64,000 bases of DNA, from NCBI RefSeq assembly GCF_019884785.1, contig NZ_CP082326.1, positions 2,101,355 through 2,165,354 of the forward strand, read 5' to 3'. The DNA is from Crassaminicella profunda (GTDB lineage: Bacteria; Bacillota; Clostridia; Peptostreptococcales; Thermotaleaceae). Position 1 is the first letter of the stretch, and every line of letters starts with the position of its first letter. Of this stretch, positions 7,690 through 51,682 are shown piece after piece. The translations under genes and the position numbers were made by a program. A model generated the notes under the pieces. The model saw only the letters and a program-made list of their open reading frames with translations. It was not told the DNA's origin and did no database searches.

Positions 7690-7719
7690 GAATAAAGTGC
7701 GACTTTGCGCACTTTATTC
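7690..7719 (-). terminator. 12-bp perfect hairpin at the end of the DUF1858 selenoprotein gene
   Basis: GAATAAAGTGCG and CGCACTTTATTC form a perfect 12-bp stem with a 6-nt loop. The stop codon of the DUF1858 gene (7714-7716) lies in the stem. The T tract after it on the minus strand is interrupted (TTTATTC), so termination strength is uncertain. Confidence 0.65.
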
Positions 7720-7908
7720 ATGCAATTTTTTCTCTAAAGTTTCTATCAACAATTTTTCATCTATTCCATATTTTTTTGAAGCGTATCCAACGCTTTTATA
7801 AAGAACGCCACCTCATCCAAAACATCTTATGCCAAATTCATTGAAAATCTCTTCAACTTTAGGAAATTTTATTAAAATATCATTGATAATCGTATCCCTA
7901 CAAACCAT
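7714..7908 (-). CDS. DUF1858 domain protein, probable selenoprotein (UGA at codon 32)
   Basis: A 64-codon gene read through an in-frame TGA (7813-7815). Translation gives a DUF1858 (ScdA-N-like) domain starting MVCRDTIINDILIKFP. The family's CxGC-type motif appears as GIRCFGU, with TGA exactly at the second cysteine, followed by GGVLYKSVGYASKKYGID and LLIETLEKKLHE, then TAA. GGAGG stands 7 nt before ATG 7908. A 6-bp hairpin with a UGGAU loop lies 17-34 nt after the TGA, as bacterial SECIS elements require. The clean reading frame on both sides argues for selenocysteine over a decayed gene, though a Cys-to-stop mutation cannot be excluded. DUF1858 proteins are small and possibly redox-active; function unknown. 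It lies downstream of hisIE behind a terminator-like hairpin. Confidence 0.72.
7779..7795 (-). promoter_or_regulatory. Bacterial SECIS-like hairpin
   Basis: On the minus strand AAGCGT pairs with ACGCTT around the loop TGGAT. The loop starts 24 nt after the UGA and has G at its second position. Both agree with the bacterial SECIS consensus (short apical loop with an early G, 16-37 nt from the UGA). It lies inside the coding sequence, as bacterial SECIS elements do. Confidence 0.6.
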
Positions 7909-7940
7909 AAAAATCCCTCCTATTATTAGGATGGATTTTT
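7909..7940 (-). terminator. Hairpin ending the his operon and burying the next gene's ribosome binding site
   Basis: AAAAATCC-C-TCCTA and TAGGA-T-GGATTTTT form a 13-bp stem with one mismatch and a TTAT loop. In the minus-strand RNA it ends in GGGAUUUUUAUGG, a terminator shape, 35 nt after the hisIE stop. Its 3' arm contains the GGAGG (7916-7920) of the DUF1858 gene. If transcription reads through, the same fold would mask that ribosome binding site. Confidence 0.65.
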
Positions 7941-7975: not shown

Positions 7976-8596
7976 TTACTTATTATACCTACTATATAAT
8001 TCTTTTTTGATATCCTCTAGGGGAATTTCTTTTTCTACCAAAAGTACTAATAAATGATAAATCAAATCAGAAACCTCGTAAATAATTTCATCTCTTTCAT
8101 CATTTTTTGCCCCTATGATGACTTCGCTGGCTTCTTCTCCAACTTTTTTAAGGATTTTATCAATTCCTTTTTCAAACAAATAATTGGTATAAGAACCTTC
8201 CTTTGGACTTTCTTTTCGATCTTTAATTAAAGTATATAGTTTTTGAACAATTTGTTTTTTTTCATCGTCTTCATTTTCTTCAACTATTTTATTAAAAAAA
8301 CAACTTTCTGCTCCTGTATGACAAGCATTTCCTAAAGGAATAACCTCTATCAACAATGTATCCCCATCACAATCATAACTCATTTTTTTTACAATCTGAT
8401 AGTTTCCACTAGTTTCTCCTTTATTCCAAAGCTTTTGTCTACTTCTACTATAAAACCATGTTTTTTTTGTTTCTAAAGTTTTTTGAAAAGATTCTTCATT
8501 CATATAAGCCATCATCAAAACTTTCTTTGTATTTATATCTTGTACAATTGCTGGTATTAACCCATGACCATCAAATTGAAGGTTTATATTTTCCAT
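7976..8596 (-). CDS. hisIE: Bifunctional phosphoribosyl-AMP cyclohydrolase / phosphoribosyl-ATP pyrophosphatase
   Basis: A 206-residue fusion catalysing steps 2 and 3 of histidine synthesis in the cytoplasm. The N-terminal HisI part (about 1-105) carries [19 protein letters not shown] and the metal-site motifs DCDGD and CHTGAESCF. The C-terminal HisE part (about 115-206) carries the MazG-like [12 protein letters not shown] and [12 protein letters not shown]. Its ATG overlaps the hisF stop (TAATG), implying translational coupling. It is the last his gene; a hairpin at 7909-7940 follows. Confidence 0.97.
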
Positions 8597-9360
8597 TACT
8601 TGATCCTCCTGATTTCTATCTCATTGTCATAAAGATATTCTTTTAATTCTTTAATACTGATTTCCCCATAGTGAAATACAGATGCAGCCAATGCAGCATC
8701 GGCAGAACCATCACGAAATACCTTTAAAAAATCCTCTCTTTTTCCAGCACCTCCAGAAGCAACTACAGGAATGTTTACACTTTTTGATATAGCTTTTACA
8801 AGTTCTATATCATATCCATCCTTTACACCATCTGTATCAATGCTGTTGATTACAATTTCACCTGCTCCTAATTTTTCTCCTTCTATTGCCCATTTTAAAG
8901 CATCTAGTTTTGTATCTACTCTTCCACCATTTATATATACTGTGTATAAATCATTATTATTTTTCTTGGCATCTATAGATAATACAACACATTGTCTTCC
9001 AAATTTTAAGGCTGCTTCTTGAATAATTTGGGGATTTTTCACAGCTGCTGAATTAACGGATACCTTATCAGCTCCTGCTCTTAATACTGCTGTAAAATCA
9101 TCTATGGTTCTAATTCCTCCCCCTATGGTAAAAGGAATATAAACTTCTTCTGCAGTTCTTTCAACGACGTTTAAAAAGATATCTCTATTTTCATTAGATG
9201 CAGTAATATCATAAAAAACCAATTCATCAGCTCCTGCTTGACTATAGAATTTTGCAAGTTTTACAGGATCTTCTACATCTACTAGGTTTTTAAATTTTGT
9301 TCCCTTTACAACCCTTCCCTTATTTACATCTAAGCAAGGAATAATTCTTTTGGTAAGCAT
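8596..9360 (-). CDS. hisF: Imidazole glycerol phosphate synthase, cyclase subunit
   Basis: A 254-residue (beta/alpha)8 barrel that, with HisH, turns PRFAR and ammonia into imidazole glycerol phosphate and AICAR. The catalytic aspartates are seen in [15 protein letters not shown] (Asp near residue 11) and in [13 protein letters not shown]. The phosphate-binding GGGIR and ASGGAG are intact. ATG 9360 is chosen because AGGAGG is 7 nt upstream; an ATG at 9366 would abut the site. It follows hisA by 11 bp and overlaps hisIE. Confidence 0.97.
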
Positions 9361-9371
9361 TATCATTCCTC

Positions 9372-10070
9372 CTATAATTCTTCTAAGGCAATATCACCCG
9401 TATATAAAGCTTTTCCTATGATTGCGCCATACAATCCTAAAGTACTTAATTTTTCAACATCTTCCTTCTTGCTAATCCCTCCAGATGCTATTAAGTCTAT
9501 ATTTATATTTTCTTTTAATTCTTTTAATTCTTTAAAATTTGGTCCTAAAAGCATCCCATCCTTTGCAATATCCGTATAGATGAGGGTTTTTAATCCTAAT
9601 CCTTCTAATTTTTTAGCAAAATCAATTGCTTTTATATCACTGGTTTTTGTCCATCCGTCTACTGCTACATATCCTTTTTTTGCATCAATAGACACAGCAA
9701 TTTTTTCACCAAAGGTCTTTAAAGCCTCCTCTACAAATCCATCAATTTTTACTGCTGATGTGCCTAGAATCACACGGCTAACTCCATAGCTTAAAACATT
9801 TTCTATGTCTTTTATTTTTCTAATTCCTCCTCCTAGTTGTACAGGAATATTTGTAGCTTTTATAATTTCTTTAATCACATGACTATTTTTAGATACCCCT
9901 TCTAATGCTCCATCTAAATCTACTACATGAATATATTTAGCTCCTTGCTCTTCCCACTTTTTAGCAATCTCTACTGGGTTTTTACTATATATATTTTCAT
10001 CTTGAAATTTACCTTGTTTTAGTCTTACACAATTACCACCTCGTAAATCAATGGCAGGAAAAATAATCAT
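9372..10070 (-). CDS. hisA: ProFAR isomerase (HisA)
   Basis: A 232-residue (beta/alpha)8 barrel that isomerises ProFAR to PRFAR, step 4 of histidine synthesis. Catalytic Asp is in [14 protein letters not shown] and the second acid in [15 protein letters not shown]. The phosphate-binding motifs LGGGIR and ASGGIS are present. Its ATG overlaps the hisH stop as ATGA, so the two are translationally coupled. Confidence 0.97.
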
Positions 10071-10672
10071 TTTATCAACTCCCCAAAGTTTTTGAGTAAC
10101 TTCATCCCCGTTTCCCCACTTTTTTCAGGGTGAAACTGCATACCCAAAATATTTTTCTTTCTAACAACGCCTGGTACATCTACGCCATAATCTGCCCAAA
10201 ATACCACTTCTTCTTTTTTTTGAGGTTTTACATAATAGGAGTGCACAAAGTATACATATTCATCATCAATATTTTCTCCTATAGGGTCATCTGACCCTTT
10301 TAATAGCTTATTCCATCCCATATGAGGCACCTTTAGGGTATTATCAAATCTCACTACTTCTCCTTTTAAAAGACCTAATCCTTCCCATTTTCCATCTTCA
10401 TAGCTTGTATCATAAAGAAGTTGCATGCCTAAACAAATTCCTAAAATAGGTTTGCCTTTCTTTACATTACTCTTTAAGCAGTTAATCAAACCACTTTCTA
10501 TCAGATGATCCATGGCATCTTTAAAAGCACCTACTCCTGGCAAAATAATTCCTTTACTCTTATTAATTTCTTCTTCACAAGACGTGATAGTTGCTTCAAA
10601 ATTCAATTTTTTTAAAGCCTTATAGACACTTTTTAGATTCCCTACACCATAATCAACAATAGCAATCATCAT
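10067..10672 (-). CDS. hisH: Imidazole glycerol phosphate synthase, glutaminase subunit
   Basis: A 201-residue class I glutamine amidotransferase feeding ammonia to HisF. The nucleophile Cys is in GICLGMQLL and the His/Glu of the triad are in MQFHPEKSG. Two adjacent ATG codons (10672, 10669) follow GGGAGG; the second has the better spacing. It lies 11 bp after hisB and overlaps hisA by 4 bp. Confidence 0.96.
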   Translation of the reverse strand: MMIAIVDYGVGNLKSVYKALKKLNFEATITSCEEEINKSKGIILPGVGAFKDAMDHLIESGLINCLKSNVKKGKPILGICLGMQLLYDTSYEDGKWEGLGLLKGEVVRFDNTLKVPHMGWNKLLKGSDDPIGENIDDEYVYFVHSYYVKPQKKEEVVFWADYGVDVPGVVRKKNILGMQFHPEKSGETGMKLLKNFGELIK

Positions 10673-10683
10673 TTTTCCTCCCT

Positions 10684-11268
10684 CTACAACGACCCCTTCG
10701 TAGATAATACCCCTTCAATTCGATCTTGCACTCTAGTAGCTTCATCTAATACCCTTCCTAGTCCCTTAAAAATAGATTCTATGAGATGATGGGTATTTTT
10801 CCCGTATTTTAAACTGATATGAAGGGTTATGGCCGCATGATTGACAAAGGCTCTGAAAAACTCTTCCACTAATTCCGTTTCAAATTGTCCTACATATTCT
10901 CTTTCAAAAGTTACATCAAAATGTAAATAGGCTCTTCCACTAATATCTATAGAAATCATAGACATAGCTTCATCCATTGGGGTAAAAATAGTTGCATATC
11001 TTGTAATTCCTTTTTTATCTCCTAGTGCCTTTTTTAAAGCTTTTCCAAAGACAATCCCTATATCCTCTACAGTATGATGATTGTCTACCTGAAGATCTCC
11101 AACACATTTTAACTTCATATCTAAGAAACCATGTCTGCACATTAAATCCAACATATGATCAAAAAAACCAATTCCCGTATCAATTTCTATCTTTCCTGAT
11201 CCATCCAAATTAAGGGATAAATCAATATTCGTCTCTTTTGTTTTTCTCTTTATTTCTCCTACTCTCAT
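10684..11268 (-). CDS. hisB: Imidazoleglycerol-phosphate dehydratase
   Basis: A 194-residue monofunctional HisB. The manganese-binding repeats are FFDHML, DNHHTVEDIG and, in the second half, FVNHAAITLH and NTHHLIESIFK. No phosphatase domain is fused; that step is provided by HisJ encoded divergently at 14458. The gene starts 3 bp after the hisC stop with only a weak GGTG-type site, suggesting coupling to hisC. Confidence 0.97.
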   Translation of the reverse strand: MRVGEIKRKTKETNIDLSLNLDGSGKIEIDTGIGFFDHMLDLMCRHGFLDMKLKCVGDLQVDNHHTVEDIGIVFGKALKKALGDKKGITRYATIFTPMDEAMSMISIDISGRAYLHFDVTFEREYVGQFETELVEEFFRAFVNHAAITLHISLKYGKNTHHLIESIFKGLGRVLDEATRVQDRIEGVLSTKGSL

Positions 11269-11271
11269 ATG

Positions 11272-12321
11272 CTACACCACTTTCCTAAATACCCTTAGTA
11301 GTTCATTATTTTCTTCTCTAGACCCTACACTAATGCGAAAACAATTCTTTAGAAGTTCTTCATTAAAAGCTCTTATGCTAATCTTTTCTTCTTTACAGAC
11401 CTTTATAATTTCTTCAGCCTTTTTGCTTCTAATTAAAATAAAATTAGCTCCTGTTGGAAAAACTTCAATAGTTTTAATATTTCTTAATTCTTCATAAAGA
11501 TATGTTCTCTCTTTCTTTATTTTTTCAATATATTCTTGAATAAGTTCAATATTTTCCATATAAATTTTTCCTATCATTTGTGAAAATACATTTAGATTAT
11601 AGGGTGCTTTTACCCGATATAATGCATCCATCATTCTTTCACTTGCAGCACCATATCCGATCCTTGCGCCAGCTAGTGCAAAAGCTTTTGATAGTGTCCT
11701 CAATACAATTAAATGATCATATTTTTTGATTAAATTGATAGAAGATTCATCTAAAAATTCAGAGTAAGCTTCATCCACTATAACAATAGACTTTGTTTCT
11801 TTAAGTACTTTTTCAATATCATCCATGGGGATAACCCTTCCCGTTGGATTATTTGGATTACATAAAAAAATAAGTTTTGCTGATCTTTCATTTGCCTCTT
11901 TAATGATTTTATCTACATCAATTTTAAAATCATCTTCACATGGAATTTGGGTAAAATTTCCACCAGCTATGGTTGTAAATATTTTATACATAGAAAAGGT
12001 TGGACTATGGGTAATGACATATTCATCTTCTCCGACAAAAGTGTTTATAATCGTCTGAATCACTTCATCAGAACCATTTCCACATAAAATATTTTCTTTT
12101 TTTAATCCTAAATAACTTGCAAAACATTCCCTTAATTCATCACTATTCGTATCTGGATATCTATTAAGTTCTAAAATTTTTAAATTTTCTATAAACTGAT
12201 CCTTTAATATTTCAAATAGATTATATGGATTTTCATTGGCATCTAATTTAGTTTTAATGATTTCATTAGAGATCTCATAAGGCTTTAAAAACCTTACTCT
12301 CTCTTTCATAAAATTAATCAT
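11272..12321 (-). CDS. hisC: Histidinol-phosphate aminotransferase
   Basis: A 349-residue class I PLP aminotransferase that converts imidazole acetol phosphate to histidinol phosphate. Seen are KLDANENPYN at the front, the CNPNNPTG motif, the PLP lysine in LRTLSKAFALAGARIGYG, and the C-terminal FRISVGSREEN. ATG 12321 is chosen: GAGGGG lies 7 nt upstream and the gene then starts 16 bp after the hisG stop. A longer reading from 12354 would overlap hisG without a binding site. In many operons hisD lies between hisG and hisC; here it is absent. Confidence 0.96.
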   Translation of the reverse strand: MINFMKERVRFLKPYEISNEIIKTKLDANENPYNLFEILKDQFIENLKILELNRYPDTNSDELRECFASYLGLKKENILCGNGSDEVIQTIINTFVGEDEYVITHSPTFSMYKIFTTIAGGNFTQIPCEDDFKIDVDKIIKEANERSAKLIFLCNPNNPTGRVIPMDDIEKVLKETKSIVIVDEAYSEFLDESSINLIKKYDHLIVLRTLSKAFALAGARIGYGAASERMMDALYRVKAPYNLNVFSQMIGKIYMENIELIQEYIEKIKKERTYLYEELRNIKTIEVFPTGANFILIRSKKAEEIIKVCKEEKISIRAFNEELLKNCFRISVGSREENNELLRVFRKVV

Positions 12322-12337
12322 CCTACATCCCCTCTTT

Positions 12338-12973
12338 TTAAATACTTTTTTCAAGACTATTTTTCAAACCCTTTATAATTTTATAAATTTGCTCATTTTT
12401 CGTCTTAAAACTCACTTTATTCACAATCAATCTTGCACTAATCTCACAAATATCTTCAATAACCTCTAGTCCGTTTTCTTTTAAAGTCGTTCCTGTTTCT
12501 ACAATATCTACGATCACATCCGAAAGTCCTATAATAGGTGCTAATTCTACAGAGCCATTTAACTTAATAATTTCTATAGGCTCCCCTTTTTTCTCATAAT
12601 GATTTTTTGCAACTTTAGGATACTTTGTGGCTACCTTTCTTTTTCTATCAAGTTTTTCTTCAAACCCCTTTGGTGCTGCTACTGAAAATTTACATTTTCC
12701 AAAACCCAAATCCATAATTTCATAGACATTTGCTTTACTCTCTATTAAGGTATCTTTCCCTGCAATCCCTATATCAGCAGCTCCTTGTTCTACATATATA
12801 GGTACATCACTAGCTTTTACAAAAACTACTCGGATTTTTTCTGTCTCATCTACAAAGATTAACTTTCTACTTTTCTTATTATATTCTGGAAAACATATTC
12901 CAATTTTTTCAAACCATACAAAGGCTTTTTCTGCTAACCTTCCTTTACCTAATGCAATATTTACATAATCCAT
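12338..12973 (-). CDS. hisG: ATP phosphoribosyltransferase, short-form catalytic subunit
   Basis: A 211-residue HisG(S), the first enzyme of histidine synthesis. The start NIALGKGRLAEKAF and the PRPP-binding loop DVIVDIVETGTTLKENGL are diagnostic. The C-terminal regulatory domain of long HisG is missing, so it needs HisZ, encoded 12 bp upstream, for activity and feedback by histidine. GGAGG precedes ATG 12973. Confidence 0.97.
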   Translation of the reverse strand: MDYVNIALGKGRLAEKAFVWFEKIGICFPEYNKKSRKLIFVDETEKIRVVFVKASDVPIYVEQGAADIGIAGKDTLIESKANVYEIMDLGFGKCKFSVAAPKGFEEKLDRKRKVATKYPKVAKNHYEKKGEPIEIIKLNGSVELAPIIGLSDVIVDIVETGTTLKENGLEVIEDICEISARLIVNKVSFKTKNEQIYKIIKGLKNSLEKSI

Positions 12974-20072: not shown

Positions 20073-21947
20073 CTAAAAACCTAACTCGTTTCTGTATAGC
20101 ATTGGTTCTATCTTCTCTCCTAACCCTTGATATATTCTCACATGTTCAAGCTGTCCATTAGGATATCTAATATCACATTCTAAACGAACACCAGAAGAAC
20201 CTTCTATTCCATATCTGCTTCCATATTCAATCTCTATGATCACATCTTTAAAACTTCCATCACCTAATAATGTTATCTGAGGTTTAGGTGGTCCTTCTGG
20301 ACCTGTGAAAGGGTTTGAAAAAGTTCTTATGGCCGTAAGATTTTCTACTTCTCCTATTATTGTAAAATAGGTTTTAGTCCCTTCTCCACCAGCACAATAT
20401 TTTTTGCTTGCAAGTTTATTTGCATTTAACCCATCATATCTCCATGGAAAAATTACATTTCTAAACTTATCATAATCAATATATTTGCCATGAACTTCTT
20501 CATTTATATAGCCTTTATCACTCCTATCAACTGAAGAGACCTTATCATCGGTATTATCGTTAGATTTAGCAGTATGTTGATCATTTTTATCATTATCTTT
20601 ATTCTTCTGAGCTTCAATTGCATTTGTTATTTGAGCTACTAAATCTTCTTTAATCTCTTTCCCTAATTTACATACCTGTTCCCCATTATTTTTTACTAGA
20701 GTCTTTTGTCCAAGCTCTACAATGATGTAGTCTATATAAGGATCTGTTTTGATTAATGTAAAAGGTTCTTCACTATAATGATTCGTTATAAACTGCAATC
20801 TTGAAGTATATACATCATACATATAAACTTGATACATCCCTTTATTACTTGAATCAGTAGTAAAATAAATTTTAGATCCATCTTTTGATTGATCACAGTA
20901 TGTAACATTAGAAAATATTGGAGCAAATGTTTTATCTGAATTATGATTATGATAACATTCATATTTTTTACCACTTTCAAGTATTTCTACCTTATTGCCT
21001 GTATTATTATATTGTATATTTAAATTATTGTTTTCTACATAATCAACATACCCTTGACTTAAATCATCTTTTACAGCAACAGCATTATCCGTATCATTGA
21101 TTTTTGAAGGTTCATTTTTTATGTTATCAAAATTATTATTTAAATGATCAAATCCACCTGGTAATTCTGTAATGATAAACGCTTCTTTTTCACTATCGAA
21201 TTTATAATGTTTTCTAATGTCTTGAGTATGCTTATTTTCTTGGGTATTTTCATTATTTATATATAAATTATAATTGTATTCAAATTCTTTATACCCATCA
21301 ATACAATTAATGGTACTATCTCCCTTCCAAATAACACCATGACTACCTGCACCATAGTTTAAATCAAATTGTGCTACCCCTTTAACTTCGCTTCCATTAT
21401 AATGACCTATATTCAACATATCAAGATGTTCACTAGAACCACCATGTCTGGTTTTTAACATAACAAATCCGCTATCCAACCATACCTCACTAGCATATCT
21501 GCCCGAATGTAAATCACTAGGTAAAATTTTATAATGCCCATTATCTAATGTTACAAATACAATTGGTACAGCGTTAGAACCCTGATCTACTAAAATAGCT
21601 TCCTCACTTCCATTACCAGTAACATCTAAAATATAGATTACAACATTACCATCAAATTCATCATAATTTTCATATCTAAATTGATCTTTAACAAATTCGA
21701 ATAAGGTAGACTGATTATATATATCATCATGAATAGAATTTGAGTTTTCTTCTTTTTCCATCTCAGCTTCAATCTCTTTCTTTAGTTGTTCTTTTAATTT
21801 AACTTCTGCTTCCATCTCTGCCTTTACTTCTTCTCTTAGTTCTTCCTCTGTTTTTTGTGATGTAGATGCTTCTTTACTACCTGAACAGCCTACAAAGATA
21901 TTAGATATTAGTGCTATGACTAATAAAAAAAACGTTACTTTCTTCAT
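20073..21947 (-). CDS. Large lipoprotein with coiled coil, uncharacterised
   Basis: A 624-residue lipoprotein with the lipobox NIFVGC (Cys at residue 21). Residues about 34-66 are a charged coiled coil (EEELREEVKAEMEAEVKLK) nearly identical to those of the two lipoproteins upstream. The middle contains YNNTGNKVEILESGKKYEC, matching the SLH protein's module, and a beta-propeller-like stretch (SKDGSKIYFTTDSSNKGMYQVY). The last about 120 residues resemble a NPCBM/discoidin-like sandwich (EYGSRYGIEGSSGVRLECD). The function is unknown; binding of wall or extracellular glycans is a guess. It lies 66 bp upstream of the SLH gene. Confidence 0.82.
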   Translation of the reverse strand: MKKVTFFLLVIALISNIFVGCSGSKEASTSQKTEEELREEVKAEMEAEVKLKEQLKKEIEAEMEKEENSNSIHDDIYNQSTLFEFVKDQFRYENYDEFDGNVVIYILDVTGNGSEEAILVDQGSNAVPIVFVTLDNGHYKILPSDLHSGRYASEVWLDSGFVMLKTRHGGSSEHLDMLNIGHYNGSEVKGVAQFDLNYGAGSHGVIWKGDSTINCIDGYKEFEYNYNLYINNENTQENKHTQDIRKHYKFDSEKEAFIITELPGGFDHLNNNFDNIKNEPSKINDTDNAVAVKDDLSQGYVDYVENNNLNIQYNNTGNKVEILESGKKYECYHNHNSDKTFAPIFSNVTYCDQSKDGSKIYFTTDSSNKGMYQVYMYDVYTSRLQFITNHYSEEPFTLIKTDPYIDYIIVELGQKTLVKNNGEQVCKLGKEIKEDLVAQITNAIEAQKNKDNDKNDQHTAKSNDNTDDKVSSVDRSDKGYINEEVHGKYIDYDKFRNVIFPWRYDGLNANKLASKKYCAGGEGTKTYFTIIGEVENLTAIRTFSNPFTGPEGPPKPQITLLGDGSFKDVIIEIEYGSRYGIEGSSGVRLECDIRYPNGQLEHVRIYQGLGEKIEPMLYRNELGF

Positions 21948-22003
21948 AAAATCCCCCTATCACTTTATCTAAAATCTCATTTGAATCAAATCCTTTTAAA
22001 ATA

Positions 22004-22711
22004 CTAATCATATTCACTAAAGAATCGAATACTTTCAATAATCACATCTTTCCCAATCTCATCTTTACTAAAATATCTCTCACCAGTATTATATGTAAAA
22101 GATAGAACATATTGTGTATCTATGCATTTACCTGAACTATTCTTTTCTTTATATATAAACCAATCTGGTAGTTCTTCTTCCTTTGCACTATGCATATTCT
22201 TAACATTTTCAAAGTTATTTTCACAATATTTAATGGCATCTAATGCGTGATTTCCTATTTTAATATCATCGTTGTATTGATATTTGTTTGAAAGAATCTC
22301 AATGAAAGCAGGATATGCATCACCAGGTAATTTCTCTGGAATATACTCAAAAGTAAATATTATATCAGGATACTTTATTCTAGTATCCAAGTAACCATCC
22401 ATATCCTCTATTGTATCAATAGTATAGTTATTTCCTAAGTTTTCCACAATCTCATCTTTTGTCATCTTTACAGATAAAAGAATTGGCTCTTCTTTTGGCA
22501 ATGCTACATTATTTTCTTCTTTTTTCTCTTTTTCCATCTCAGCTATAATCTCTTTTTTTAATTTTTCTTTTAATTTAGCTTCTGCTTCCATCTCTTCCTT
22601 TACTTCTTCTCTTAGTTCTTCCTCTGTTTTTTGAGTAGCTGTTTCCTTTGAACAACCAACTACTGCTAACCCAAGTATTAAAATGAGTAATAAACTAATT
22701 ATTTTTTTCAT
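22004..22711 (-). CDS. Lipoprotein with coiled coil, uncharacterised
   Basis: A 235-residue lipoprotein with the lipobox AVVGC (Cys20). Residues 28-68 form the shared acidic/basic coiled coil (EEELREEVKEEMEAEAKLKE). The C-terminal about 160 residues (MTKDEIVENLGNNYTIDTIE onward) form a separate domain, with SVKMTKDEIVENLG resembling proteins that begin with a small helix-strand unit; no family recognised. GGAGG precedes the start. It sits between the other two lipoprotein genes with gaps of 56 bp on both sides. Confidence 0.8.
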   Translation of the reverse strand: MKKIISLLLILILGLAVVGCSKETATQKTEEELREEVKEEMEAEAKLKEKLKKEIIAEMEKEKKEENNVALPKEEPILLSVKMTKDEIVENLGNNYTIDTIEDMDGYLDTRIKYPDIIFTFEYIPEKLPGDAYPAFIEILSNKYQYNDDIKIGNHALDAIKYCENNFENVKNMHSAKEEELPDWFIYKEKNSSGKCIDTQYVLSFTYNTGERYFSKDEIGKDVIIESIRFFSEYD

Positions 22712-22767
22712 CTTAACCTCCTAATTTTTCAATTACCTTATTCTATATCTTATTATTTTTTTATAAA

Positions 22768-23733
22768 TTAACTCTCAAATCTTATTCCATCAAATTGAAA
22801 TTTAGAGTCTTCTCCACTGTAGTCTGGAGGACTAAGTTCTACTTCATCGCCGTTAATCCATAGTTCTTGATCTTTCCATTTAATATTTAACCAGTTATCA
22901 ATCTCCCCATAAATAACCATCTCTTCACCTGGTACAATTTCTACATAAGATGCTTCTGTTGTTTTATCCTTGTATACTCTTATTTTTTCATTAACTTTTG
23001 ATGTTATTGGTGTTTTATAAGTATATATGCCTTTTTGAGGTACAAGTTCTATATTACCTGTCTCTCCAATAATATATTTTTTATAATAAATACCCGCTTC
23101 CATTATATGTGAATAGGCTTCTACAATAAATTCACCCTTTCCATCTGTAGTTAATTTATCTTCTTCGTCAGCACAATGGTCCGTTATGACTATAGAGCCC
23201 AAGCTATAGAAATCTCTTCCATCATATCTGTAAAAATACAAATATCTTACTCCAGGTGTATCGTGTTCACCCAATACAAATTCTACACTATTATCACTCG
23301 TATCTATATCAATTATCCCAAATTTGTCCTCAGCCATATCTGCGTAAATATCATTAATCTCATATTTATTCCCATTTATTTTTATATCTGTAATATATTC
23401 TATATCTTGGAAATCATTATCATATATTATTTTATCAAGTTGTCCATCTTTATTTAAATCTATAGAGTATTCCGTATTTGCTGCATATTTACGTAATTCA
23501 TTTTCAGCTATTTCTTCATCAAGCTTTGATTCCTTTTCTTGTTGCACATTATTGTGATCTTGAGCATCATTAGAAACATTTGCACTTTCTTTTTTCTTTG
23601 CTTCTGCTTCTAGCTCTGCTCTAATTTCTGCTTTTAACTCTTCTTCTGTTTTTTGAGTAGTTGTTTCCTTTGAACAACCAGATACTGTTAAACCAAGGAT
23701 CAAAATGAGTAATAAACTAATTATTTTTTTCAT
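22768..23733 (-). CDS. Lipoprotein with C-terminal SH3-like domain, uncharacterised
   Basis: A 321-residue lipoprotein with the lipobox TVSGC (Cys20) and a signal sequence almost identical to that of the next gene. A shorter form of the shared coiled coil follows (EEELKAEIRAELEAEAKKK). The middle region has DLNKDGQLDKIIYDND, a calcium-loop-like or FG-GAP-like motif. The last about 75 residues look like a bacterial SH3 domain (KINVRVYKD-type start, then WLNIKWKDQELWINGDEV), which usually binds wall peptides. AGGAGG stands 6 nt before ATG 23733. First gene of the surface cluster. Confidence 0.82.
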   Translation of the reverse strand: MKKIISLLLILILGLTVSGCSKETTTQKTEEELKAEIRAELEAEAKKKESANVSNDAQDHNNVQQEKESKLDEEIAENELRKYAANTEYSIDLNKDGQLDKIIYDNDFQDIEYITDIKINGNKYEINDIYADMAEDKFGIIDIDTSDNSVEFVLGEHDTPGVRYLYFYRYDGRDFYSLGSIVITDHCADEEDKLTTDGKGEFIVEAYSHIMEAGIYYKKYIIGETGNIELVPQKGIYTYKTPITSKVNEKIRVYKDKTTEASYVEIVPGEEMVIYGEIDNWLNIKWKDQELWINGDEVELSPPDYSGEDSKFQFDGIRFES

Positions 23734-25611: not shown

Positions 25612-25795
25612 ATTTTTTGCCCAGAATGCCGTCCACCCTTAAATTCACACCCGCCACTCACCTAAGTGGGTGATCTATCCTTTACTTCTGAATTCCACTC
25701 ATTGATGGCTTTTCATCTATAAAGGAACACGAACTCCCGGATGTCTTTTGTAGGTTGAATTTTCAGGCTTTAACGCACACCCCAGGATCAACTGT
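25612..25795 (-). ncRNA. ssrS: Structured RNA, probable 6S RNA (SsrS)
   Basis: About 185 nt of GC-richer, non-coding sequence with its own promoter and terminator. Its ends pair over ten positions (CCUGGGGUGU with GCAUUCUGGG, including wobble pairs). Nested inside are AAAUUCA/UGAAUUU (7 bp), UCCUUUAU/GUAAAGGA (8 bp) and a GAUG/CAUC apical hairpin. A long rod closed by terminal pairing and broken by a central loop is the 6S RNA architecture, which mimics an open promoter and binds sigma-A RNA polymerase. The identity is inferred from size and shape; a covariance search would settle it. The transcript end points are estimates. Confidence 0.55.
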
Positions 25796-48525: not shown

Positions 48526-48563
48526 AAAAAACTTGATTCCTCAGTAGAGGAATCAAGTTTTTT
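48526..48563. terminator. Terminator of pflBA
   Basis: AAAAACTTGATTCCTC/GAGGAATCAAGTTTTT with an AGTA loop, overlapping the pflA stop; T-rich on both strands. Confidence 0.9.
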
Positions 48564-49269
48564 AAACAATATTTAAATATTTTTCAAGTTCCAACGTTCT
48601 TTCTTTACTCATTGGTTGAACCCCATCTAGTTTATAGCATATTCCCATTTTTTCATATTTATTAATACCTAAATGATGATAGGGAAGCAATTCAATTTTT
48701 TCTACATTTTCAAACTCTTTTATAATCTTTTTAAGTTTCTTTATATGCTCTTTACTGTCTGTTATTCCTGGAACAACCACATGTCTTATCCATAGTTTCA
48801 CAGATGTCTTTATTAAAGCTTCTTTGAATTTTTCAAATGCTTCAATATTTCCACCTGTCAATTTCTTATATCCATTTCCATTTACATGTTTTACATCTAA
48901 AATTACTAAGTCTGTATACTTTAGTATTTCTTCATATTTTCCGTTTCCAAAGCCAGATGTATCTAAAGCTGTATGAATACCATGTTCTTTACATGATTTC
49001 AAAAACTCTATTAAAAACTCAGGCTGCACGAGGGGATCGCCTCCTGAACAGGTTATCCCTCCTCCTGAAGTCTTGAAATAAGGTTTAAATCTTAACACTT
49101 TTTTCATAAGTTCATTAACTGCTATTTCTTTTCCTTTATGAACATCCCAAGTATCTGGATTGTGACAATAGGCACATCTTAACTTGCACCCTTGAAAAAA
49201 TACTACCGTTCTTATGCCAGGACCATCTACAAGTCCCATACTCTCAATAGAATGAATTCTTCCTATCAT
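48562..49269 (-). CDS. pflA: Pyruvate formate-lyase-activating enzyme
   Basis: A 235-residue radical SAM enzyme that generates the glycyl radical on PFL. The cluster motif is GCKLRCAYCHNPDTW (CxxxCxxC). Also seen are SGGGITCSGGDPLVQPEF and the C-terminal LLPYHHLGINKYE. It lies 12 bp after pflB and ends at the shared terminator. Confidence 0.96.
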   Translation of the reverse strand: MIGRIHSIESMGLVDGPGIRTVVFFQGCKLRCAYCHNPDTWDVHKGKEIAVNELMKKVLRFKPYFKTSGGGITCSGGDPLVQPEFLIEFLKSCKEHGIHTALDTSGFGNGKYEEILKYTDLVILDVKHVNGNGYKKLTGGNIEAFEKFKEALIKTSVKLWIRHVVVPGITDSKEHIKKLKKIIKEFENVEKIELLPYHHLGINKYEKMGICYKLDGVQPMSKERTLELEKYLNIV

Positions 49270-49281
49270 ACAATCCCCCTT

Positions 49282-51516
49282 CTATACAACCATATTTTCA
49301 TGGAATGTTCTACTGATTACTTCTAGCTGCTGTTTTCTTGTAAGCCTATTGAAATTAACAGCATAACCAGATACTCTAATCGTAAGTGTTGGATACTTTT
49401 CAGGATGATCCATAGCATCTATAAGGGTTTCTCTATTTAACACATTTACATTCAAATGATGTGCTCCTTGAGAAAAGTACCCATCTAATATGCATACTAA
49501 ATTATTAATTCTATTCTTTTCATCTTTCCCTAAGGCTTCAGGTACTATTGTAAATGTATTTGAAACCCCATCTTGACAAACATCCTTATAAGGAATCTTT
49601 GCAACAGAATTGAGGGATGCCAACGCACCATTTTTGTCTCTTCCATGCATAGGATTAGCTCCTGGTGCAAAAGCTTCTCCCATTTTTCTTCCATCTGGTG
49701 TTGCTCCTGTCTTTTCACCATATACCACATTTGAAGTAATCGTAAGTACTGATAAAGTATGTTCTGCATCTCGATAGGTCTTATGTTTTTTCAATTCTTT
49801 AATAAATTTCTTCACAATTTCAACAGCTATTTCATCTACTTGATTATCATCATTTCCATACGTAGGAAATTCTCCATCTATTTGAAAGTCTACTGCTATG
49901 CCCCTGTTTCTAATAGGTTTTACTTTTGCATATTTTATTGCACTTAATGAATCTGCTGCTACTGATAAACCTGCCACTCCAAAAGCCATAATTCTACCAA
50001 CCTCTGTATCATGTAAACTCATTTGTCCTGCTTCATATGCATATTTGTCATGCATATAATGAATAATGTTCATGGTATTTACATAAAGCTTGGCTACATA
50101 TTCTAAAACTTTAAAATAATTTTCTTTTACTTTATTATAATCTAATACGTCATCTTCATTTTTTTCAATATCAGGTACAACTAAAGTCCCTTTTTTCTCA
50201 TCTATCCCACCATTAATTGCATATAAAAGAGCTTTTGCAAGATTACATCTAGCACCAAAAAACTGCATCTGCTTTCCAAGCTTCATAGCTGAAACACAAC
50301 AAGCAATGCCATAATCATCTCCATAAATAGGTCTCATAATATCATCATTCTCATACTGAATAGAATCCGTCATAATAGACATCTTCGTACAATATTTTTT
50401 GAAGTTTTCAGGAAGTTTTTCAGACCATAAAACAGTTATATTGGGTTCTGGCGATGAACCTAAATTGGTCAAAGTATGCAAAAATCTGAAAGACGTTTTA
50501 CTAACCAAGGTATTTCCATCAATTCCCATTCCTCCAATAGCCTCCGTAATCCAATTTGGATCTCCTGCAAATAATTCATTATACTCTGGTGTTCTTAAAT
50601 GTCTTACCATTCTAAGTTTTATGACAAATTGATCAATGATTTCTTGCGCCTCTCTTTCAGATATAACACCATTTTTCAAATCTTTTTCAATGTATATATC
50701 AATGAAAGTACTGACTCTTCCAAGAGACATAGCAGCACCATTATTTTCTTTTATACCTGCTAAATATCCAAAATATATAAATTGAACGGCTTCTTTAGCA
50801 TTTTGAGCAGGTCTTGAAATATCTATTCCGTAAGTAAGTGCCATATTTTTTATTTTCTTGAATGCTTTTATTTGTTCTGCTACCTCTTCTCTCTTTCTAA
50901 TGAGCTCTTCATTCATAGCTCCCTTTAAATTTTCAAGATCCTTTATTTTTTCCTCTACCAAAAAGTCTATTCCATAAAGTGAAATTCTTCTATAATCCCC
51001 TATAATTCGTCCTCTTCCATAAGCATCTGGAAGGCCTGTCAGAAGTCCTGCAGATCTTGCTATTTTTGTCTCTTTTGGATATACATCAAATACTCCTTGA
51101 TTATGAGTCTTTCTATAATTTTGAAATACCTCATCCATCACACTATCCATTTCATATCCATAAGACTCAAGAGCAGACTTTGCCATTCTAATACCACCGA
51201 AAGGATTGACAATTCTCTTTAATGGCCCATCTGTTTGCAGTCCTACAACAACTTCATTTTCCTGATCTATATAGCCTGGCTTAAAATTATCTATTCCTGA
51301 AACATTTTTTGTATCAATGTCAAGTACTCCTTTTTTTAATTCGTCTTGACACATATTTTTACAAATATTCCATACCTTTTCAGTTTTTTCTGTAATCCCC
51401 CCTAAGAAGCTTTCATCCCCTTCGTAAGGAGTATAATTTTTTTGTATAAAATCTCTTACATCTATTTCTTCTGTCCAATTCCCTTGTATAAATCCTGTCC
51501 ATTCTTTTCTTAACAT
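49282..51516 (-). CDS. pflB: Formate C-acetyltransferase (pyruvate formate-lyase)
   Basis: A 744-residue glycyl radical enzyme that splits pyruvate with CoA into acetyl-CoA and formate. The catalytic cysteine pair is in [15 protein letters not shown], and the radical glycine is in [13 protein letters not shown] near the C-terminus. The presence of both, and length, fit true PFL. CAGGGAGGG precedes the ATG. Transcription passes through a ZTP riboswitch with an overlapping terminator, so formate production is tied to folate/one-carbon status. Confidence 0.97.
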
Positions 51517-51557: not shown

Positions 51558-51658
51558 AAAAAATAGAAAGACCCCCTGGACTTGTCGCCCAGGCGGTCGG
51601 CATTTCTCAAAATCACACTCCCATGTGGTTTATTCCACTTCCGCCAGTCATGTGATTT
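51558..51658 (-). promoter_or_regulatory. ZTP (pfl-motif) riboswitch with terminator
   Basis: The aptamer (51584-51658) has the pfl-motif parts: pairing ends AAATCACA/TGTGATTT, then GACTGGCGG, the GTGG-CCAC hairpin, GGGAG, and the distal GCCGACCGCCTGGGC. The last block also forms a terminator, GACCGCCTGG with CCAGGGGGTC (one mismatch), followed by TTTCTATTTTTT. Ligand binding should keep this block in the aptamer and let transcription continue, an ON switch for ZTP/ZMP, signals of 10-formyl-THF shortage. Confidence 0.92.
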
Positions 51659-51682
51659 GTTTCATAAAAATGATCTATGCTT

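Follow-up and report, generated by a model that had tools for sequence, protein, structure and literature searches.

Small proteins described as "DUF1858 domain-containing protein, CxxU" appear in two selenoprotein catalogues, with WP_012065717.1 as an example; in the portions of these sources that were available, they are table lines without genomic context or function (PMC9312934, PMC13188914). The gene described here belongs to the same Pfam family and shares with them the motif and the single selenocysteine (Sec) per protein; it is thus a further member of an already catalogued group, differing from the table lines in having both a context and a proposed role. The term DUF1858 is absent from the main texts of PMC2398784 and PMC5029168, which the catalogue cites for it.

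The gene neighborhood of sister genes at other loci (termed type B here) resembles the sulfane-sulfur operons of the CstR/YrkD type (cst of S. aureus and the yrkD cluster of B. licheniformis; available parts of PMC9918477 and PMC9774590), in that both combine a regulator, TusA, a DsrE-type carrier, and a rhodanese. In the accessible text on the latter cluster, the repressor YrkD controls YrkE, YrkI, and YrkF (DsrE, TusA, and rhodanese, respectively), which are presented as potential carriers of sulfane sulfur (PMC9918477). Unlike these operons, type B loci include an NAD(P)H CoA-disulfide reductase–rhodanese, i.e., a reduction step, and a Sec-DUF1858 gene, whereas the gene studied here lies outside such a cluster. 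Furthermore, the available part of the paper on the NADH-dependent persulfide reductase (Npsr; PMC7969121) mentions no DUF1858 selenoprotein partner. Neither a place in a his operon nor a linkage to persulfide handling or sulfur relay was found for Sec-DUF1858 in the open-access PMC literature, within the text that could be consulted.

The window, that is, the whole stretch of 64,000 nucleotides that was analysed, corresponds to G000:C1:2101355-2165354, the source being a single 4.59-Mb contig. The features relevant to this work are the following (types A, B, and C are locus types, see below):

7714 to 7908, minus strand: coding sequence of a 64-aa candidate selenoprotein of the CxxU DUF1858/TIGR03980 type (type A), ATG 7908-7906, stop TAA 7716-7714
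7813 to 7815, minus strand: in-frame TGA, putative Sec codon 32, second Cys position of CFGU (CxxU); TGA in 14/14 type A/B genes, including that of the window
7916 to 7921, minus strand: Shine-Dalgarno sequence AGGAGG
7779 to 7795, minus strand: bSECIS-like hairpin AAGCGU-UGGAU-ACGCUU, with a 6-bp stem, the loop UGGAU, and 23 nt from UGA to loop
7906 to 7943, minus strand: leader hairpin burying the Shine-Dalgarno sequence and the start codon (-16.5 kcal/mol, z -3.4)
7690 to 7719, minus strand: intrinsic-terminator-like hairpin of 12 pairs, overlapping the stop codon
7976 to 8596, minus strand: hisIE, ending 67 nt before the selenoprotein start
8596 to 12973, minus strand: hisF, hisA, hisH, hisB, hisC, and hisG, closely spaced (names from reading the translations)
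25614 to 25791, minus strand: 6S RNA (73.6 bits)
51580 to 51661, minus strand: ZMP/ZTP riboswitch (Rfam)

The last two were the only matches in an Rfam scan of the window at the gathering threshold. Downstream of the riboswitch, the translations read as a pyruvate formate-lyase-type glycyl radical enzyme-like gene (49282-51516) and an activating enzyme (48562-49269). In addition, three genes in tandem were seen by eye at 20073-23733 (minus strand), whose products are related, lipoprotein-like, and charged in N-terminal stretches.

A first-pass annotation, made from the DNA letters, had proposed a hidden selenoprotein gene at 7714-7908 without giving the strand. The position proved exact, and the strand is minus: a frame of 64 codons runs from ATG 7908 to TAA 7716-7714, its sole interruption being the TGA at 7815-7813 (codon 32), so that it is open on either side, as had been claimed. 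With the TGA read through, the translation is MVCRDTIINDILIKFPKVEEIFNEFGIRCFG-U-GGVLYKSVGYASKKYGIDEKLLIETLEKKLHE. The gene is absent from the standard-code frame list (at least 40 aa), in line with the statement that ordinary gene callers would miss it, and the announced ribosome binding site corresponds to AGGAGG at 7921-7916.

The same annotation spoke of a full DUF1858 domain, which is slightly generous: judged from its sequence, the product is a clear DUF1858/TIGR03980 homologue, but both scores lie below the curated cut-offs. The best family match is TIGR03980 (41.5 bits against a cut-off of 44.95, E 1e-10, residues 4-58), from which the product also differs in carrying Sec for the second Cys; Pfam DUF1858 (PF08984) scored 27.1 bits (gathering 32.2, E 4.5e-6) and ScdA_N 25 bits. 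The type B relative L054 passes the TIGR03980 cut-off with 47.6 bits. An AlphaFold2 model built from a 14-row alignment with C for U (pLDDT 87.2, pTM 0.70) has helices at residues 8-14, 16-24, 40-46, and 51-63 and places the C29-x-x-U32 pair between the second and third of them, as expected for the CxxC-type redox pair of TIGR03980. The best PDB matches by Foldseek were 2k53 (TM 0.80) and 2k5e (0.79), followed by YtfE 5fnn (0.72), none of them reaching E 0.001; 2k53 was also the best PDB match by sequence (E 0.0015). 2k53 and 2k5e are small DUF1858-type proteins; the similarity of fold to them supports a relationship to DUF1858, as does the Pfam E-value.

The search for the selenocysteine machinery, which the first-pass annotation had proposed as a check, retrieved all the genes from the genome, namely tRNA-Sec (74.5 bits, anticodon TCA), selA (638.9 bits), selB (403.9 bits), and selD (401.4 bits), within 1.939-1.953 Mb. 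The selD gene itself (L071, G000:C1:1951713-1952636) has an in-frame TGA near the N-terminus; therefore, SelD is probably a selenoprotein in this genome. All 12 genomes with the 14 best matches of the window gene harbor selA; as many as 207 of the 297 genomes of the order score above that cut-off, so that the co-occurrence, taken by itself, is weak support.

The order-wide search (297 genomes) gave some match at E <= 0.001 in 145 of them. The 14 best matches (E <= 9e-12; the query plus 13 others, from 12 genomes) each contain exactly one in-frame stop, which in all 14 is a TGA at the same codon, and no other in-frame stop was found within them. Most of the weaker matches listed lack a stop; TGA occurs in five further ones that were fetched (type C), and TAA or TAG in a few. 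L060, the one TAA row that was examined, is a Cys gene, and the stop within the match is the one at its own end. A pattern requiring Cys at the TGA site returned 18 Cys homologues, so the alignment of homologues bears out the claim that the TGA replaces the second Cys of a CxxC (here C-F-G-U). Among the matches listed from a phylum-wide sample of 398 genomes, 20 high-scoring places were fetched, with TGA at this site in 16 and Cys in 4. Within the family, type A or B occurs in 6 of 16 genomes at E <= 1e-10. A scan of the genome collection for close relatives gave no match with the single protein and nine named loci with alignment A1; the relatives named there include Anaerosolibacter carboniphilus and Geosporobacter subterraneus. 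Seven fetched loci were not caught by the motif pattern and are absent from the hairpin counts and the tree described below; five of them (L087, L099, L102, L103, and L104) have TGA at the same codon, and two (L029 and L039) have Cys.

Purifying selection acts on the frame before as well as after the TGA, and the frame is not in decay. For the five type A genes, pN/pS is 0.32 before the TGA and 0.24 after it; for the nine type B genes, the values are 0.30 and 0.35. Past the hairpin only, they are 0.32 (type A) and 0.57 (type B); in type B, constraint on the C-terminal part is weaker. The differences after the TGA are distributed over the first, second, and third codon positions as 65/29/136 in type A (260 codon comparisons) and 259/177/494 in type B (936). 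It might be argued that the TGA is a true stop, leaving a 31-aa peptide or a decayed pseudogene. TGA is indeed an ordinary stop in this DNA, ending 4 of the 44 open frames of at least 200 codons in the window, and the leader hairpin buries the Shine-Dalgarno sequence. Against this, the TGA is kept at one codon in 14/14 type A/B genes with no second in-frame stop in any of the 14 matches, the downstream frame is under selection, and homologues with Cys at the site exist; a true stop is therefore very improbable.

As a chance control, both strands of the window were scanned in six frames for stop codons preceded by an open run of at least 25 codons from a start, then at least 30 open codons after, then a bSECIS-like hairpin of -5.7 kcal/mol or better. 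For TGA, 117 codons had the first property, 21 also the second, and a single one, that at 7815-7813, also the hairpin. Under the same criteria, the counts were 239, 41, and 0 for TAA and 114, 22, and 0 for TAG.

According to the available part of PMC13188914, a bSECIS has an apical loop of 3-9 nt, a stem of 4-16 bp, a G in loop positions 1-2, and 16-37 nt between UGA and loop; the hairpin at 7795-7779 agrees with all of these (UGGAU, 6 bp, 23 nt). It had been described as a 6-bp hairpin with loop UGGAU starting 24 nt after the UGA: the hairpin is real, but nt 24 is where its loop begins, the stem starting at nt 18. The published energy criterion is an MFE <= -7.5 kcal/mol. The hairpin alone has -5.7 kcal/mol, and the 42-nt downstream stretch folds with it at -6.4; the free 57-nt RNA (MFE -8.9 kcal/mol) goes under -7.5 only in a different, wrong fold, this alternative being preferred, with P = 0.18 for the hairpin core. 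If the first 12 nt past the UGA are held back, as they are in the ribosome, the hairpin has P = 1.00; in the same setting, the core hairpin is in the MFE structure of 16 of the 19 Sec genes and missing in 3. Plain MFE folding was rejected as proof of the hairpin, the 57-nt folds varying between relatives. When the codons of the window gene were shuffled synonymously, an equally stable hairpin arose in 34 of 1000 cases; for the other 18 Sec genes, between 10 and 256 of 1000 shuffles reached the observed stability.

All 19 Sec genes (types A, B, and C) have a hairpin of at least 5 bp at the same place (at least 6 bp in 18 of them), and 3 of the 18 Cys homologues have one of at least 6 bp. In these three (L023, L025, and L036), the 6-bp hairpin sits at the bSECIS position, and in two of them the loop starts with GG; they are perhaps remnants of a Sec-to-Cys change. 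In the 19-row alignment, 91.0% of the cells are paired versus 82.1% in shuffles, both sides are changed in 14 cells versus 5.9, and the covariation score is 0.278 versus a shuffled mean of 0.115, with none of 500 shuffles as high. Two of the five measures gave no excess, namely the pairs with two-sided change (2; 410/500 shuffles) and the pair types (4; 496/500). The serine codon AGC is present in 19/19 Sec genes and the alanine codon GCT in 18/19, and in the stem GTx goes with TAC in the five type A genes, while ATx goes with TAT, GAT, or AAT in the other 14. Because this pair, one of the two that covary, splits type A from all the others, the covariation may go back to just one event at the root of type A. 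As for more distant Sec forms, L091, L095, L096, and others of L086-L101, from other families of the phylum, seem by eye to have inverted repeats rich in GC that lie some codons further 3' (e.g., GAGCAGGGTGCTC), possibly a shifted bSECIS.

A different reading of the UGA, i.e., near-cognate insertion of Trp or Cys or a changed code, would fit the Cys that homologues have at this site. Nevertheless, the long frames of the window, of which several or more may be cited that end in TGA, are consistent with the standard code, the Sec machinery including tRNA-Sec(UCA) is present, and a bSECIS-like hairpin with compensatory changes lies inside the coding region; we consider this the least probable of all the readings discussed here.

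Reading frame, conserved UGA, hairpin, Sec machinery, purifying selection, and the position right behind hisIE, with a terminator-like hairpin overlapping the stop codon, together argue for a true selenoprotein gene, a reading to which we assign, on sequence grounds, a probability of about 0.92. The decoding of the TGA at 7815-7813 as Sec appears even more secure, close to certain, and the product would almost certainly be a small selenium-containing redox protein. The outcomes that the first-pass annotation had set beforehand as refuting (no Sec machinery, or frame decay in relatives) were both not found; its selenocysteine interpretation is supported by the machinery, the conservation of the TGA, and the low pN/pS after it.

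The gene lies at the end of the his operon. The spacer between hisIE and the type A gene is exactly 67 nt in 5/5 loci, which belong to three genera. Together with the terminator-like hairpin that follows the gene in the window, this constancy might suggest a role of type A in histidine biosynthesis or its regulation. However, two congeners (G090 and G078) have a very similar leader and terminator around an unrelated, Cys-free ORF of 63 aa (L117:2173-2361, plus strand, and L118:1241-1429, minus strand). Since similar leader and terminator sequences enclose an unrelated ORF there, the his-distal slot looks like an exchangeable cassette, which in turn speaks against a function specific to histidine; the idea that type A is a histidine regulator was set aside for this reason, and any role of this kind seems improbable.

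The 63-aa ORF of G090 is weakly similar to DUF2383 (23.6 bits versus a cut-off of 30.8), and G111 harbors the same ORF further downstream, with a different leader. In the congener G035, no hisIE match was retrieved. A search of the genome of the window for this DUF2383-like ORF of the congeners found none, a result that proves little. The leader hairpin could block translation; at the other four type A loci, the corresponding stretch folds more weakly (-6.3 to -10.5 kcal/mol).

The relatives fall into three locus types. Type A comprises the window gene and those of G106, G084, G067, and G116. In the four relatives, a LytS-type kinase gene lies downstream (assigned by Pfam for one and tblastn for the others); downstream of the window gene, there is a GntR/aminotransferase-like gene on the same strand (translation read). 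At the nine type B loci, the Sec-DUF1858 gene is, in 8/9, directly upstream of the gene for a CoA-disulfide reductase–rhodanese (CoADR-rhodanese), followed by TusA and DsrE2. The reductase has Pyr_redox, dimerisation, and rhodanese domains (Pfam), which is the layout of Npsr. Seven of the nine type B stretches include a CsoR-family regulator, the exceptions being L051 and L062, whose contigs run out shortly afterwards; at L052, the regulator gene adjoins the Sec-DUF1858 gene directly, and the reductase is absent. All four kinds of gene (regulator, TusA, DsrE, rhodanese) are found together at 6/9 loci but not at the window locus, which is a his operon. All nine type B genes are preceded by a promoter-like TTGAC and by ACCCC...GGGG, seen by eye and not before type A genes; the latter may be a CsoR/CstR-type operator. 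The CsoR-family neighbours, assigned by Pfam, keep Cys and His-x3-Cys, the copper-type CsoR ligand pattern, so that persulfide is only a possible signal for them.

Type C (five loci fetched) consists of Sec forms near purA and/or dnaB. At this site, the genome of the window has its own TIGR03980 paralogue, with Cys. The only Sec form of G130 among the matches listed is of the purA/dnaB-linked type C (L059), on another branch than the window gene; if G130 is Alkaliphilus metalliredigens, from which WP_012065717.1 presumably comes, the catalogued protein would presumably be of type C and lie outside the branch of the window gene. The genome of the window also has its own CoADR-TusA-DsrE2-CsoR cluster at about 4.476-4.479 Mb, with no DUF1858 gene in front. 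The surrounding stretch (L074:4484-8979) comprises genes for a rhodanese, CoADR-rhodanese, TusA, DsrE2, a CsoR-family repressor, and DUF3189, with CACCCCC...GGGGGTG upstream and no DUF1858.

A tree was built from 52 rows, taken from the best of the matches listed, and 64 columns, hence from few characters. Type A is a supported clade (100/98), and so is a wider group of 15 rows, all of them Sec, that unites A and B with the Sec gene L085 (100/98) and leaves the Cys rows outside. No support was obtained for type B as a group (46/0), and the split between A and B is poorly resolved. The type C Sec genes are drawn scattered among Cys genes but may have a single origin. Both type A and type B are present in G106 and G067; therefore, type A probably arose by duplication and relocation. 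According to this scenario, the type A gene would have moved to the end of the his operon and would probably be co-transcribed with the histidine genes, instead of being expressed from the type B promoter with its ACCCC...GGGG operator-like sequence.

The genes for CoADR-rhodanese, TusA, and DsrE2 adjoin the sister type B genes and are present elsewhere in this genome, which points to a sulfur-relay role. The linkage runs through paralogy, the window gene lying outside the sulfur cluster. We propose tentatively, at somewhat less than even odds, that the product is a selenol/thiol partner in persulfide reduction or relay. SelB with Sec-tRNA(Sec), guided by the hairpin at 7795-7779, would decode UGA 7815-7813 as selenocysteine, giving a helical DUF1858 protein of 64 aa with the redox pair Cys29-x-x-Sec32. 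The selenol/thiol pair would take up or reduce sulfane sulfur (persulfide or polysulfide), cycling between selenol-thiol and selenenylsulfide, and would be re-reduced by, or hand its sulfur to, the NAD(P)H-dependent CoA-disulfide/persulfide reductase–rhodanese, TusA, and DsrE2.

Alternatively, the selenoprotein might be a partner of the hybrid-cluster protein (Hcp) or act in Fe-S repair rather than in sulfane-sulfur chemistry, as suggested by the name of TIGR03980 ("hybrid cluster protein-associated redox disulfide domain"), by the ScdA_N match (the N-terminal domain of ScdA/RIC), by the fold match to YtfE, and by G017, where a Cys-type homologue (L060) is about 2.4 kb from an Hcp-like gene recognized by reading its translation. 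The coordinates of this pair of genes are L060:1967-3613 and about 6039 (minus strand). None of the stretches surrounding the 14 type A/B loci gave a match in tblastn with the Hcp-like protein of G017 (E <= 1e-3), and the sulfur genes adjoin 8/9 of the type B genes. We therefore regard a role with Hcp or in Fe-S repair as a less likely explanation than the sulfur relay, if still a substantial one.

In a broader and more speculative view, which we hold to be possible and somewhat doubtful, the type A/B clade would be a distinct, Sec-only carrier of sulfane sulfur (or electrons) for a relay of NAD(P)H persulfide reductase, TusA, and DsrE2 under a CsoR-family sensor; in some clostridia, it would have moved into the exchangeable his-distal slot, so that a selenium-dependent sulfur relay would be linked with amino-acid biosynthesis. 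The locus also represents a conserved selenoprotein gene missed both by a standard-code frame search and by curated domain cut-offs. The catalogued DUF1858 CxxU selenoproteins, functionless in the table lines available, would thereby gain a testable role: as the closest relatives are locked to persulfide-handling genes, the part that a selenol may play in sulfur relay can be tested on a protein of only 64 residues.
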